This document shows positions 7,203 through 32,612 of a DNA stretch of 32,679 bases, one piece after another. Each line of letters opens with the position of its first letter. The stretch's first letter is position 1. The stretch lies in assembly GCA_913045445.1 (NCBI GenBank), contig CAJWQP010000014.1, positions 1 to 32,679 on the forward strand, read 5' to 3'. This DNA comes from an uncultured Nitrospina sp. (GTDB lineage Bacteria > Nitrospinota > Nitrospinia > Nitrospinales > VA-1). The notes under the pieces are model-generated. The model saw only the letters and a list, made by a program, of their open reading frames with translations, did not search any database and had not been told where the DNA came from. A program made the position numbers and the translations under genes.

Positions 7203-7248
7203 AAAAAAAGCCCCCAGACATTGACTCTAGATCAACGCCACAGGGGCT
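7203..7248 (-). terminator. Rho-independent terminator of the stress-protein gene
   Basis: On the - strand, AGCCCC pairs with GGGGCT, enclosing a second TTGA/TCAA stem, and a run of seven T follows (AAAAAAAG at 7203-7210 on the + strand). It lies about 90 bases after the stress-protein stop and before the ABC exporter gene, separating the two transcription units. Confidence 0.85.
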
Positions 7249-7334
7249 CTTTAGATTCGTATTAGTATGCACCATCTTCGAGTGAACCGCTGGATAAAAT
7301 TCCTGCTGCTCAGTTCAGGTCGGGAGTATGCGCG

Positions 7335-9404
7335 TCAGGCATCCACCTTTTTCGGCAGGAAATCTTCCAAAGTGGCTCCGTTGGCAATAGCTTCTTCCAT
7401 CATCTTAACGGAATCACGAATACCATCTTCACAAACCTGTAAAGTAATTTCCTTGATGTTATGAGATTCGGCATATGATAAGACCCGGTTTTTAGTATTT
7501 TCCCGCATGAATCCGGCGGGAACCAGTTCCAAACGTTCAATTGCCTTGGCCGACCAAGTGTAATCTATTTGTTCCGGCGCATCATCCATGTAATCATTGA
7601 GAGCTTCATTTTTATCATTTTTCTGTACAATCTTATCGTTCAGCACCTGATTCAAAAATGAGGCTGAAATAGTTTCAATATTCTGAATACGTGCATTCTT
7701 CTCTACCCTGGCTTGCGCTCTTCTGCGAACATGTCCATCCGGATATTCCTCGAGCCTGTCCAGAGCATCCTGAGTCCACTGAACAGTGATATCGTCAAAG
7801 GTGGTGACTTTCTGGATACTATCCTTTTCCTTTTCTTCCGGCTTAAATCCTTCTTTCCAAACTGGAGCCAGACTCTCACCCTCGGCCCCACAAACAAAAC
7901 ATTTAATAACATCCTGTTCCATGAAGGTATGGCAGTGTTTGCACTGAAAAGTCACGTTGGCCACCTGAGCGCCATTAGAGTTACGTCCATCTTCGGTCGC
8001 GACAACATTCTCTTCACCCATTTCAACTTTACCCTCATCACCGTTATCGTAGGAGCTGGGGGCTTCACTCGCCTCCGTATCTTCACCCTCACCAGCGTGG
8101 GCCTGCATCATCTCGTCCTTATAGGTTTTGAGACCCTCTTCGGTGTTGAGGTCGACACCCTCATCTTTAATTTTTTCGCCAATTTGCCGCATGGCCTGCA
8201 TAGCTCCCGCTGGCAGAATTTTCTCCACCGCTTCGGTGATGACACTTGATGTGATCATGCTGTGGCCCCGCTCCAACGCATAACGAAGGATCGCTGACGT
8301 TGCCATGGGACGAACAAATCCTGGAATCTTCTGCAACCGCTCCCTTCCTTCAGCAGTCCACTCGATACTTTCTTCTGCCTGCATATCAATCGAGGGCTTG
8401 AAGGTGCGACTCGACAAAAGCACGTTGCACGGCACCAGTCGCATGAGGTTTTCAGCATTCCCCCCAATGTCCATCTCGGGACCACTGTGTACTCCGATAC
8501 GCCCCAGAATCAGGAGATATGGATTCTCTTCCCGAGCATATTGGAGCACTTTCTCAAAAACCTTGCCGTCCAGCAAACGAATGGTACATTCCATCCCTTC
8601 TTCTTCAACAATTTTGCGTGAAACTTCGAGATGTGCCTGATAAATCTTTGCCAGCCCTTTATCAATAATATCTTCATGCAGTTTTTCCTGCTGTTCAAAC
8701 TTGAACACTTTAGACGCTTCTCTGGAAAGCACCCCGGTAAGGCTGTTGAACATCGCATAATGAAAGTACGGGTCGAAAGTGGAAATGATCTCCAAAGGCT
8801 TGTTCAATTTTCTGGCCAACTCAATACCTGTTTTTAATCCGCCAAAAGACTGACCACTCCCATCGACAGACACAACAATTTTACCACTGGAAGAACGCTC
8901 GCCATGAAGTTCCGGGATGTATTTAACCAACAAGGTGTCTGTCTGAGTTCGCCTTACAACCCGCTCGGCGACAGTTCCTATCAAACTGTCCTTGATGGCA
9001 CCCAATCCCAATGCCCCCATGACTACCAAATCGTACTTCGATTCTTTAATATCGCAGACCAATTCTGTGTAGTTTCGTCCTTCAAGTGACTTACCTTCAA
9101 AGGGAATATTAAGTTGCTTACACTTATCTTTGGGAACATCCAGGTATGAATCGGTGATGACCTCCATCCCTTTGGTGATAAGTTGATCATGAATACTGCG
9201 CTGTTTTTCCAACTCGGTTTCATCCTGATACTCTTCGGGCAAACCGCTTTCCATCTGGCGGAAGCGAACATCGTGCATTTTGGCCGCATAAACATGGCTG
9301 GCGACAATGCGAGATCCAAATTTTTGAGCCAATTCCAAGCCCATATCTATACAAACGTTGGAATAGTCGGAGTTATCGACTGGCAAATAAATAGAGTCAA
9401 ACAT
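7335..9404 (-). CDS. Tandem universal stress protein fused to three PCP_red-like repeats and a zinc ribbon
   Basis: The 689-residue protein starts with two universal stress (Usp) domains. Usp1 (1-162) keeps the full ATP-binding pattern G-2X-G-9X-G-T at 130-144. Usp2 (about 173-335) has G301, G304 and G314 but Gly315 in place of Ser/Thr. Then come three copies of a module of about 50 residues with the pattern W-t-x-x-A-x-x-R-L-x-x-x-P-x-g-x-x-R: 348-397, 542-590 and 615-665. It matches my memory of the PCP_red domain at the C-terminus of protochlorophyllide reductase B subunits. Between repeats 1 and 2 are an acidic linker (about 430-480) and a zinc ribbon with CKHC and CFVC (488-505). Usp proteins bind ATP and respond to stress; the role of the other modules is unknown. 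The ATG is preceded by AAAGAGG seven bases away. It is monocistronic between its own terminator and a 610-base upstream gap. Confidence 0.88.
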   Translation of the reverse strand: MFDSIYLPVDNSDYSNVCIDMGLELAQKFGSRIVASHVYAAKMHDVRFRQMESGLPEEYQDETELEKQRSIHDQLITKGMEVITDSYLDVPKDKCKQLNIPFEGKSLEGRNYTELVCDIKESKYDLVVMGALGLGAIKDSLIGTVAERVVRRTQTDTLLVKYIPELHGERSSSGKIVVSVDGSGQSFGGLKTGIELARKLNKPLEIISTFDPYFHYAMFNSLTGVLSREASKVFKFEQQEKLHEDIIDKGLAKIYQAHLEVSRKIVEEEGMECTIRLLDGKVFEKVLQYAREENPYLLILGRIGVHSGPEMDIGGNAENLMRLVPCNVLLSSRTFKPSIDMQAEESIEWTAEGRERLQKIPGFVRPMATSAILRYALERGHSMITSSVITEAVEKILPAGAMQAMRQIGEKIKDEGVDLNTEEGLKTYKDEMMQAHAGEGEDTEASEAPSSYDNGDEGKVEMGEENVVATEDGRNSNGAQVANVTFQCKHCHTFMEQDVIKCFVCGAEGESLAPVWKEGFKPEEKEKDSIQKVTTFDDITVQWTQDALDRLEEYPDGHVRRRAQARVEKNARIQNIETISASFLNQVLNDKIVQKNDKNEALNDYMDDAPEQIDYTWSAKAIERLELVPAGFMRENTKNRVLSYAESHNIKEITLQVCEDGIRDSVKMMEEAIANGATLEDFLPKKVDA

Positions 9405-10014: not shown

Positions 10015-11412
10015 ATGCTATTTACCAGTCAGGAGGAGTTAATCCAGCATATAAAAGGGACCGCCCGCCTGGATAACAGAGGAATAAAGATTGAAAATCC
10101 TGATAAATTTAAATCCAGATTGACAGACGACCTTGTAAAAAATTCAGTGTTGAATGGGTCTGGCGAAATCCGCGGCCTATCCCGTTTTATCATCAAGTCA
10201 GCCGCACTTGAAATGGGAATTGTTTCATCTTCCATCCAAGAATTGTACGACGCCCGTGGACGGGGCGAGTGTAGCGGATTTACTGTTCCCGCTATAAATA
10301 TCCGTGGCATGTCTTATGAGCTCAGCCGTTCAATTTTCAGAACAGCCCAAAAGTTGAACTCCGGTCCATTCATATTCGAAATAGCCAAATCTGAAATAGG
10401 TTACACCTTTCAACAACCGCATGAACTGGTGCCTGTAATTCTGGGAGCGGCTATCCGTGAAAATCATACAGGCCCTGTCTTCATTCAAGGAGACCACTTT
10501 CAGGTGAATGCCAAAAATTTCGCCACTGACAGGGAGAAGGAAATAACCGGACTTAAAAACCTGATACGCAAGGGTATAGAAGCAGGATTTTACAACATCG
10601 ATATTGACACATCCACTCTGGTGGATTTAAGTAAACCCACTGTAACCGAGCAACAGCGCGCCAATTTTGAAGTAGGCGTCGAATTGACAAAATATATCCG
10701 CGAGTTGGAGCCGCAAGGAATAACAATATCAGTTGGCGGAGAAATTGGAGAGGTCGGAAAAGAGAATAGCAACGAAAACGAATTAAGAACCTATCTGGAT
10801 AATTTCAACGAGTGTCTCGATAAAGCACTAAAAGGTGCACGAAGCATCAGCAAAATTTCTATCCAAACAGGAACTTCCCACGGCGGAGTACCCGGCCCGG
10901 ATGGAAAAGTAGTTCAAGTCAGTATGGATTTTGAATGCCTTGAAAGCCTGTCACGAATATCGCGTGAAGATTACGGACTAGCCGGAGCAGTGCAACACGG
11001 GGCATCCACCCTGCCCCGCGAATTATTTAATAAATTCCCAGAACTTGAAACTGCTGAAATTCACCTGGCTACCGAATTCCAGAATATGATCTACGATCAC
11101 GACCGATTTCCCGCTGATTTTAAGGATAAAATATATACTCATCTGCGGGAGAAGTTTGCCTCAGAAAAAAAAGATGCCGACACCGATGAACAGTTTATTT
11201 ACAAAACAAGAAAAAAAGGGTTTGGTGAATTCAAATCAGAATTCTGGAATCTTCCTGACAACATCAAATCTGAAATTAGCAAAAAACTGGAAAACAAGCT
11301 TGAATTTTTATTCAAACAGTTAAAAGTAGAAAACACAATGGATATTATAGAGAAAACGATCAGGCCGATAAAAATCTCCCCCAATCTTGACAATGAGATT
11401 GCCGCCGCCTGA
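10015..11412 (+). CDS. Divergent class II (zinc-dependent) aldolase-like protein
   Basis: The 465-residue protein carries the ligand pattern of class II fructose- or tagatose-bisphosphate aldolases in order: Asp160-His161 (QGDHFQ), Glu243 in GGEIGEVG, His289-Gly290 in QTGTSHGGVPG, and His328-Gly329 in VQHGAST. NIDIDTSTLVDLS (194-206) occupies the usual IDxS position. Such enzymes cleave or form ketose bisphosphates using zinc. It is over 100 residues longer than a typical 280-360 residue member, with an extra N-terminal segment (about 1-85) and a C-terminal helical extension (about 360-465). The usual NINTD block after the last histidine reads IHLATEF. The ATG is preceded by AAAGGAG about seven bases away. 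It stands alone. Superfamily is likely; substrate is uncertain, so I give no gene symbol. Confidence 0.75.
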   Translation: MLFTSQEELIQHIKGTARLDNRGIKIENPDKFKSRLTDDLVKNSVLNGSGEIRGLSRFIIKSAALEMGIVSSSIQELYDARGRGECSGFTVPAINIRGMSYELSRSIFRTAQKLNSGPFIFEIAKSEIGYTFQQPHELVPVILGAAIRENHTGPVFIQGDHFQVNAKNFATDREKEITGLKNLIRKGIEAGFYNIDIDTSTLVDLSKPTVTEQQRANFEVGVELTKYIRELEPQGITISVGGEIGEVGKENSNENELRTYLDNFNECLDKALKGARSISKISIQTGTSHGGVPGPDGKVVQVSMDFECLESLSRISREDYGLAGAVQHGASTLPRELFNKFPELETAEIHLATEFQNMIYDHDRFPADFKDKIYTHLREKFASEKKDADTDEQFIYKTRKKGFGEFKSEFWNLPDNIKSEISKKLENKLEFLFKQLKVENTMDIIEKTIRPIKISPNLDNEIAAA

Positions 11413-31988: not shown

Positions 31989-32474
31989 TTAACCGCAGGA
32001 AACGTTGATAGCAACCGTACCCGTGTTGGTGATTCTAACTTCGCCACTGATGTCTCCAATAGAGTCGCCACGGCTGAAGTTATTTTGACCTTTCAAGGTT
32101 ACACTCTTGCGACCCATGCTGGACATCTCACGTACGCCTACAGGAGAATTATCAACTGCTCCGGGCACACACTGTGTTGTGTCTTTACATTTAAATCGGC
32201 TCTCTTTCCTGTTACCAGAACTACCGCCTTTCATATTGTTCCAATCGTTAGGTCCCAACGTGATCGGAATCGTCGTAAAATTAGACGATTTCCAAATTGT
32301 AGCGTTTGCGTTTCCACGATCCTCTGCATTACCAGCTCCCGCGGCTTCCAATGTGATGGAAGAAGCATCGTTACAGCTAGTGCTCGCCCCTGGGGCAATA
32401 CTACCTGCGAACGCCAAAGCGGTCAGACAGAAAACAGAAACAGCGGTGATGAGTACAAGTGCAAGTTTTTTCAT
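31989..32474 (-). CDS. Small secreted protein of unknown function, four cysteines
   Basis: I do not recognise this 161-residue protein. It has a clear signal peptide, KKLALVLITAVSVFCLTALAFA, with probable cleavage before GSIAPG, giving a mature chain of about 137 residues. The mature part is rich in Gly, Ser, Asn and Thr. It has four cysteines (TSCNDA, FKCKDTTQCVPG, and the near-terminal VSCG), which could form two disulfides. The closing SGEVRITNTGTVAINVSCG looks like beta strands. The start is the ATG at 32472-32474, preceded by GGAGG eight bases away; the frame is open further upstream to 32603 but that part is not signal-like. It has its own candidate promoter and a strong terminator, as expected for a well-expressed single gene. 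Envelope or extracellular location is the only inference. Confidence 0.85.
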   Translation of the reverse strand: MKKLALVLITAVSVFCLTALAFAGSIAPGASTSCNDASSITLEAAGAGNAEDRGNANATIWKSSNFTTIPITLGPNDWNNMKGGSSGNRKESRFKCKDTTQCVPGAVDNSPVGVREMSSMGRKSVTLKGQNNFSRGDSIGDISGEVRITNTGTVAINVSCG

Positions 32475-32591
32475 AGTTCTTTCCTCCCTTACCCAAGTTA
32501 AACATTCAGTTAACCAACTTTTTTCGGGGCTGAAAACAGCCGCCTCCTCCCTACCATCAAGTAAAACGTTTGAGCTTAATATTACTCGCCC

Positions 32592-32612
32592 TTTCCTAGC
32601 CACTGTAGGAAA
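32592..32612. promoter_or_regulatory. Inverted repeat TTTCCTA/TAGGAAA in the upstream region
   Basis: TTTCCTA (32592-32598) and TAGGAAA (32606-32612) form a perfect seven-base inverted repeat with a seven-base spacer. It would overlap the start point of the neighbouring promoter candidate, so it could be an operator or a 5' hairpin of the transcript. Confidence 0.4.

Follow-up and report, generated by a model that had tools for sequence, protein, structure and literature searches.

A tandem universal stress protein with PCP_red repeats in Nitrospinota, a candidate partner of NirJ2/AhbD-type radical-SAM enzymes

The PCP_red domain is familiar as a tail on BchB/ChlB, the chlorophyll enzyme whose substrate is protochlorophyllide, and proteins of the universal stress protein (Usp) family are typically stress proteins. 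SPASM enzymes related to the radical-SAM enzymes discussed below modify peptides. Coproheme is converted to heme b by either of the two known alternative enzymes, HemQ and AhbD (PMC7242693). A search of the literature on PCP_red (PF08369), or on Nitrospira with Usp and radical SAM, found nothing on function. Here we describe a protein that carries Usp and PCP_red domains on one chain. It is encoded in a single contig (C14) of a 2.3-Mb Nitrospinota genome, the whole of which, 32,679 nt, was analyzed and is referred to here as the window.

The gene occupies positions 7335..9404 of the minus strand, stop codon included, and encodes 689 residues. The open reading frame starts with ATG and has a ribosome-binding-like AAGAGGT just 5′ of it. 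A first-pass annotation had read the product as two Usp domains, three PCP_red-like repeats, and a ribbon, and had proposed a profile search for both families. Both are matched above their Pfam cut-offs, PF00582 over two stretches (E=1.2e-28, 100.8 bits; cut-off 24) and PF08369 over three (E=5.2e-30, 103.7 bits; cut-off 32.5). The annotation would have fallen had PF08369 given no significant match to the repeats, and it survives that check. These scores, together with the conserved cysteines of the ribbon, bear out the architecture, which runs Usp-Usp-PCP_red-ribbon-PCP_red-PCP_red. The scores and the conservation of the protein across the phylum also rule out chance repeats or a misread frame.

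The two Usp domains differ at the ATP motif, as the annotation had also noticed. Domain 1 (residues 1–161; 8922..9404, minus strand) has the complete G-2x-G-9x-G-T motif at 8973-9017 (G130-2x-G133-9x-G143-T144), whereas in domain 2 (about residues 175–330; 8415..8882, minus strand) the motif at 8460-8504 ends in GG instead of GS or GT (G301-2x-G304-9x-G314-G315), so that the Ser/Thr is missing. The position is GG in the order to which the window belongs and GS in the outgroup families; since orthologues outside the order have GS, the loss appears to be derived and to have arisen within the order. Each domain also contains a long helical insert, at residues 36–92 in domain 1 (9129..9299, minus strand) and residues 210–262 in domain 2 (8619..8777, minus strand). 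Conservation is highest in these inserts, averaging 0.93 and 0.94, respectively, across 25 orthologues, and His37, Tyr39, His44, Met51, Glu52, and His72 of the first and His215 and His243 of the second are unchanged down to ≈32% identity. An AlphaFold2 model built with 25 orthologues (mean pLDDT 71.5) has a well-formed tandem Usp with long inserted helices and disordered linkers. A fold search returned tandem Usp proteins, among them TTHA0350 with bound ATP (3ab8; TM about 0.83 on the target); 3cis (E=2e-15) has the same fold. We predict ATP binding from the fold match to 3ab8 and hypothesize that ATP might control the tandem Usp. Among the matches listed in a search of plasmids were ordinary haloarchaeal Usp proteins, 23–24% identical.

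The three PCP_red repeats lie on the minus strand at 8229..8360 (residues 349–392), 7647..7778 (residues 543–586), and 7428..7556 (residues 617–659). When each repeat is scored against the genome by itself, the first (53.1 bits) and the second (35.6 bits) clear the Pfam cut-off, and the third comes just short of it (28.4 bits, E=5e-6); repeats 2 and 3 each have a one-residue insertion after the conserved Pro. The Trp that opens each repeat (Trp349, Trp543, and Trp617) is kept by 95% or more of the aligned orthologues with that repeat. In the AlphaFold2 model the repeats form three helical units, with pLDDT mostly ≈80–93 in repeats 2 and 3 and ≈65–81 in repeat 1, and they align with the solved domains 2kru and 2l09. 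By phmmer, repeat 1 matches the solved PCP_red domains 2kru, 2xdq, and 2l09 with E=1e-4 to 1e-2.

Between repeats 1 and 2 lies the ribbon (7890..7943, minus strand), a CxxC-x10-CxxC arrangement of Cys488, Cys491, Cys502, and Cys505, all four of which are conserved in every orthologue that has a ribbon. The rubredoxin-like family PF21349 has no match in the window protein in Pfam. At the same position it matches the L078 orthologue above cut-off and a Nitrospira orthologue just below it (8.7e-6). Compared with this rubrerythrin rubredoxin-like domain, the window ribbon keeps the four Cys and lacks the GY...G..P features; in its order, too, the four Cys are retained and the remainder of the domain is not. 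Membership of RecR was rejected (E=0.42 only), as was direct membership of the rubredoxin family, the matches being in orthologues only. The ribbon is best read as an altered remnant of a rubredoxin-like domain, which may once have served in electron transfer or had a structural function.

In the window the gene seems to be transcribed alone. Its 5′ neighbor, an aldolase-like gene at 10015-11412, is divergent, and 3′ of it lies a probable terminator (7205..7252, minus strand), a strong hairpin followed by a T run (−27.3 kcal/mol, z −3.9) that was spotted by eye and was not found by the consensus scan. Together these features suggest a single-gene transcript and lend no support to an operon in the window. 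Promoter-like sites were at chance level. Elsewhere in the window, a 204-residue minus-strand open reading frame at 31989-32603 has no Pfam match at all.

The relatives of the gene are placed differently. A scan of a genome collection yielded 73 assessable loci, mostly from Nitrospirota (Nitrospira and a few others). In 71 of them the gene immediately downstream, which has the same orientation and either overlaps the Usp gene or lies no more than 150 nt from it, encodes a radical-SAM/SPASM enzyme of the NirJ2/AhbD type. In 66 of these 71 loci the match extends through a C-terminal PCP_red domain of the radical-SAM enzyme itself. One family of Nitrospinota has a different enzyme of the NirJ2/AhbD group beside the Usp gene (L089; 35% identical), and this enzyme too carries PCP_red. 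In the window genome the radical-SAM gene is on another contig and is thus not adjacent. In four of the five distant Nitrospirota loci inspected, a tandem Usp without PCP_red adjoins a radical-SAM enzyme that has one. The best-scoring families of the linked enzymes are NirJ2 and AhbD throughout, with a wide margin over peptide maturases, and the scores stay below the NCBIfam cut-offs of 500 for both (312–345 bits for NirJ2; for AhbD, 292–334 bits for most and 457 bits in L089). We regard a partnership between the tandem Usp and the NirJ2/AhbD-type enzyme as well supported by synteny and as our firmest functional claim; the two proteins would presumably be physical partners.

Several other genes recur around this pair. 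In L091 (8901-9551), L238 (7326-7982), L240 (7888-8646), and L241 (8560-9288), the Usp/radical-SAM operon ends in a gene of ≈220–250 codons whose product has the motif YFSAHLPVM.TW and no significant Pfam match. Upstream of the Usp gene of Nitrospira there is often a slr0320-type (photosystem II high-light) gene for a B12-binding radical-SAM protein, as at L097:4177-5829. A CopD-like gene beside the pair in Nitrospira was considered as HemJ, but the family scan gave only a weak CopD match, and we therefore dropped it as evidence for heme.

The survey of genomes sharing the architecture, which the first-pass annotation had called for, places orthologues in 29 of the 31 Nitrospinota genomes of good quality and in 61 of 77 when all are counted. 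Among Nitrospirota, 71 of 148 genomes, Nitrospira included, have a match, one each; eight of these 71 are distant (31–35% identity) and short. The N-terminal 440 residues are ≈80% identical through much of the order of the window, and the number of PCP_red copies ranges from one in a family known from groundwater genomes, through two in another family and three in the order of the window and in Nitrospira, to five in L078. One genome (G015) has a second, shorter Usp-PCP_red protein (570 residues; L085:2012-3721) beside its 690-residue orthologue. Because the distant Nitrospirota Usp without PCP_red is still paired with a PCP_red-bearing enzyme, the pairing of Usp and enzyme appears to be older and the PCP_red repeats of the Usp protein younger. 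The Usp pair with its His/Met-rich helical inserts would then be the older core, to which PCP_red repeats may have been added by fusion and duplication, a direction that we infer from distribution and not from a tree.

The window genome as a whole has nine PCP_red matches across five proteins: the tandem Usp protein; a 147-residue zinc-ribbon protein whose gene adjoins that of an Mrp/ApbC-type Fe-S carrier; a radical-SAM/SPASM enzyme with a C-terminal PCP_red (NirJ2 326 bits, AhbD 316 bits); HemQ with an N-terminal PCP_red (contig C20); and a 276-residue protein of three repeats in which nothing else is recognized. Judged by open-frame length, the same five classes are present in almost every good genome of the order. 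The PCP_red-bearing radical-SAM protein is the only NirJ2/AhbD-like enzyme of the genome, others scoring less than 60 bits, and the only HemQ domain (PF06778, 198.5 bits) is the one fused to PCP_red. The closest solved relatives of this HemQ protein are coproheme decarboxylases (E=4.5e-25), and we predict that it is one itself; its score of 138.6 bits lies below the NCBIfam HemQ cut-off of 235. A ferrochelatase-family gene is also present. Nitrospira has a corresponding PCP_red set without the HemQ fusion, its HemQ being ≈250 residues long and free of PCP_red. The pairing of Fe-S carrier and zinc-ribbon gene is common to the window genome, G009, and N. defluvii. As a second conserved PCP_red linkage, zinc-ribbon genes with PCP_red lie beside Mrp/ApbC-type carriers in both phyla (L013:8004-9507, L200:7423-8759, and L196:6157-7100), and proteins that consist of three or four PCP_red repeats and nothing more (L016:8945-9772 and L182:1462-2454) are likewise conserved in both.

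These data bear on how PCP_red came to be used here. The annotation had pointed to the lack of photosynthesis genes, which holds for the window, and no protein with the nitrogenase-like, BchB-type domain PF00148 is present anywhere in the genome or in any of the five genomes checked; in the 689-residue protein itself, no such domain precedes PCP_red as it does in BchB/ChlB. A remnant of photosynthesis is thereby ruled out. The idea that the module has been reused stands insofar as PCP_red works outside photosynthesis in this genome, but the suggestion that it was recruited to a different purpose, for instance to sense proteins or metals under stress, is not supported: the partners of PCP_red here are HemQ, the NirJ2/AhbD-type enzyme, and the zinc-ribbon protein by the Mrp/ApbC carrier, which is to say enzymes and proteins linked to tetrapyrroles or Fe-S, and in Nitrospirota and one Nitrospinota family the Usp gene shares an operon with the NirJ2/AhbD-type enzyme. 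A continued tetrapyrrole use, with heme replacing chlorophyll, is the likelier role, and the domain best known from chlorophyll synthesis is probably part of a broader set of tools for handling heme.

We therefore propose, at roughly even odds, that the tandem Usp is an ATP-binding partner of the NirJ2/AhbD-group enzyme in the maturation of a heme-type tetrapyrrole and that PCP_red is an accessory module shared by tetrapyrrole enzymes, namely BchB/ChlB, with protochlorophyllide as its substrate, and in these bacteria HemQ and the NirJ2/AhbD-type enzyme. The step served would most simply be the last, from coproheme to heme b. The PCP_red repeats, which may bind tetrapyrrole, could recruit the Usp part to these enzymes or their substrate, and the helical inserts presumably have a role as well. 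The heme reading follows from the fact that the only HemQ and the only NirJ2/AhbD-like enzyme of the genome both carry PCP_red, as does BchB/ChlB, which is an association and not proof. Heme is accordingly the likely substrate of the linked radical-SAM enzyme, whose product could differ from heme, since the scores lie below both the NirJ2 and the AhbD thresholds. Counting against the proposal, the Usp gene and the radical-SAM gene are apart in the window genome, the fusion of HemQ to PCP_red is not universal, and two of the five PCP_red proteins are without a known enzyme partner domain. More tentatively, PCP_red might be a general tetrapyrrole-handling module, and the phyla of nitrite oxidizers might run an unrecognized system for maturing heme, with a tandem Usp that is switched by ATP and carries or channels a coproheme-like substrate to the PCP_red-tagged radical-SAM enzyme and, in Nitrospinota, to the PCP_red-tagged HemQ.

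Other explanations have to be weighed against the proposed role in heme maturation. PCP_red could be a generic small docking domain with no tetrapyrrole role, the Usp and radical-SAM proteins being partners in making a product other than heme, such as a modified peptide or some different cofactor. Such a role would suit the enzymes' scores under the NirJ2 and AhbD thresholds, their additional matches to peptide-modifying SPASM families, and the fact that PCP_red also turns up next to a gene for an Fe-S carrier and in proteins that have several repeats but no enzyme domain. We nonetheless find it doubtful, as NirJ2 and AhbD outscore the peptide maturases so clearly and HemQ in the same genomes bears PCP_red. 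It is unlikely, too, that the protein is a regulator of the response to stress or low oxygen that senses metal, redox state, or heme level instead of taking part in biosynthesis. Several UspA proteins of Nitrospira marina rise under low oxygen and were suggested to be regulators (PMC8115632), in a text silent on whether this protein is among them; the stress role typical of the family fits as well, and the invariant Cys4 ribbon and His-rich inserts may bind metal or heme. A regulator is, however, hard to reconcile with the tight linkage to the enzyme gene, which persists even where the Usp lacks PCP_red, or with a presence in nearly every genome of the lineage, mostly as a single copy, like that of a housekeeping partner, and the Pfam scan of the 689-residue protein found no DNA-binding or signaling domain. 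Finally, it is highly improbable that the protein helps to assemble a molybdenum respiratory enzyme from the nitrate reductase/nitrite oxidoreductase superfamily, for which the radical-SAM enzyme would supply a special cofactor: two distant Nitrospirota (L237 and L239) cluster the Usp/radical-SAM-PCP_red pair with a DMSO-reductase-II-type molybdoenzyme, a TorD-like gene, a cytochrome bd-like protein, and a Crp/Fnr-type regulator, and in L091 the pair is near an iron-sulfur beta-subunit-like gene, but such neighbors are absent from the Nitrospira and Nitrospinota loci read, and the PCP_red fusions are to heme enzymes.

That non-photosynthetic bacteria fuse PCP_red to homologues of both alternative final heme enzymes offers a direct route to testing what this domain does. 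If the proposed Usp partnership is true, a universal stress protein would have a specific task in biosynthesis, in lineages to which the chief nitrite oxidizers of the nitrogen cycle belong.

The window protein can be set beside several known systems. It resembles the tandem Usp proteins UspE/YdaA, Rv2623, and TTHA0350 in having two Usp domains per chain, the ATP motif (complete in domain 1), and the fold, at an identity of only ≈15%. Unlike these proteins, it has two long conserved helical inserts with invariant His and Met residues and adds the PCP_red repeats and the ribbon, and the gene of its relatives is linked to a radical-SAM enzyme. Its repeats share with the PCP_red of BchB/ChlB and the stand-alone Asr4154 (2kru, 2xdq, and 2l09) a helical module of ≈45 residues with a W-[TS] start and conserved Pro and Arg. 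Unlike BchB/ChlB, however, it has no nitrogenase-like catalytic part, carries three copies of PCP_red, and occurs in a host without dark-operative protochlorophyllide reductase (DPOR). With AhbD/NirJ2 and HemQ/ChdC, whose homologues here carry PCP_red, it would have a pathway in common; unlike them, the tandem Usp protein is itself no such enzyme but their proposed partner.
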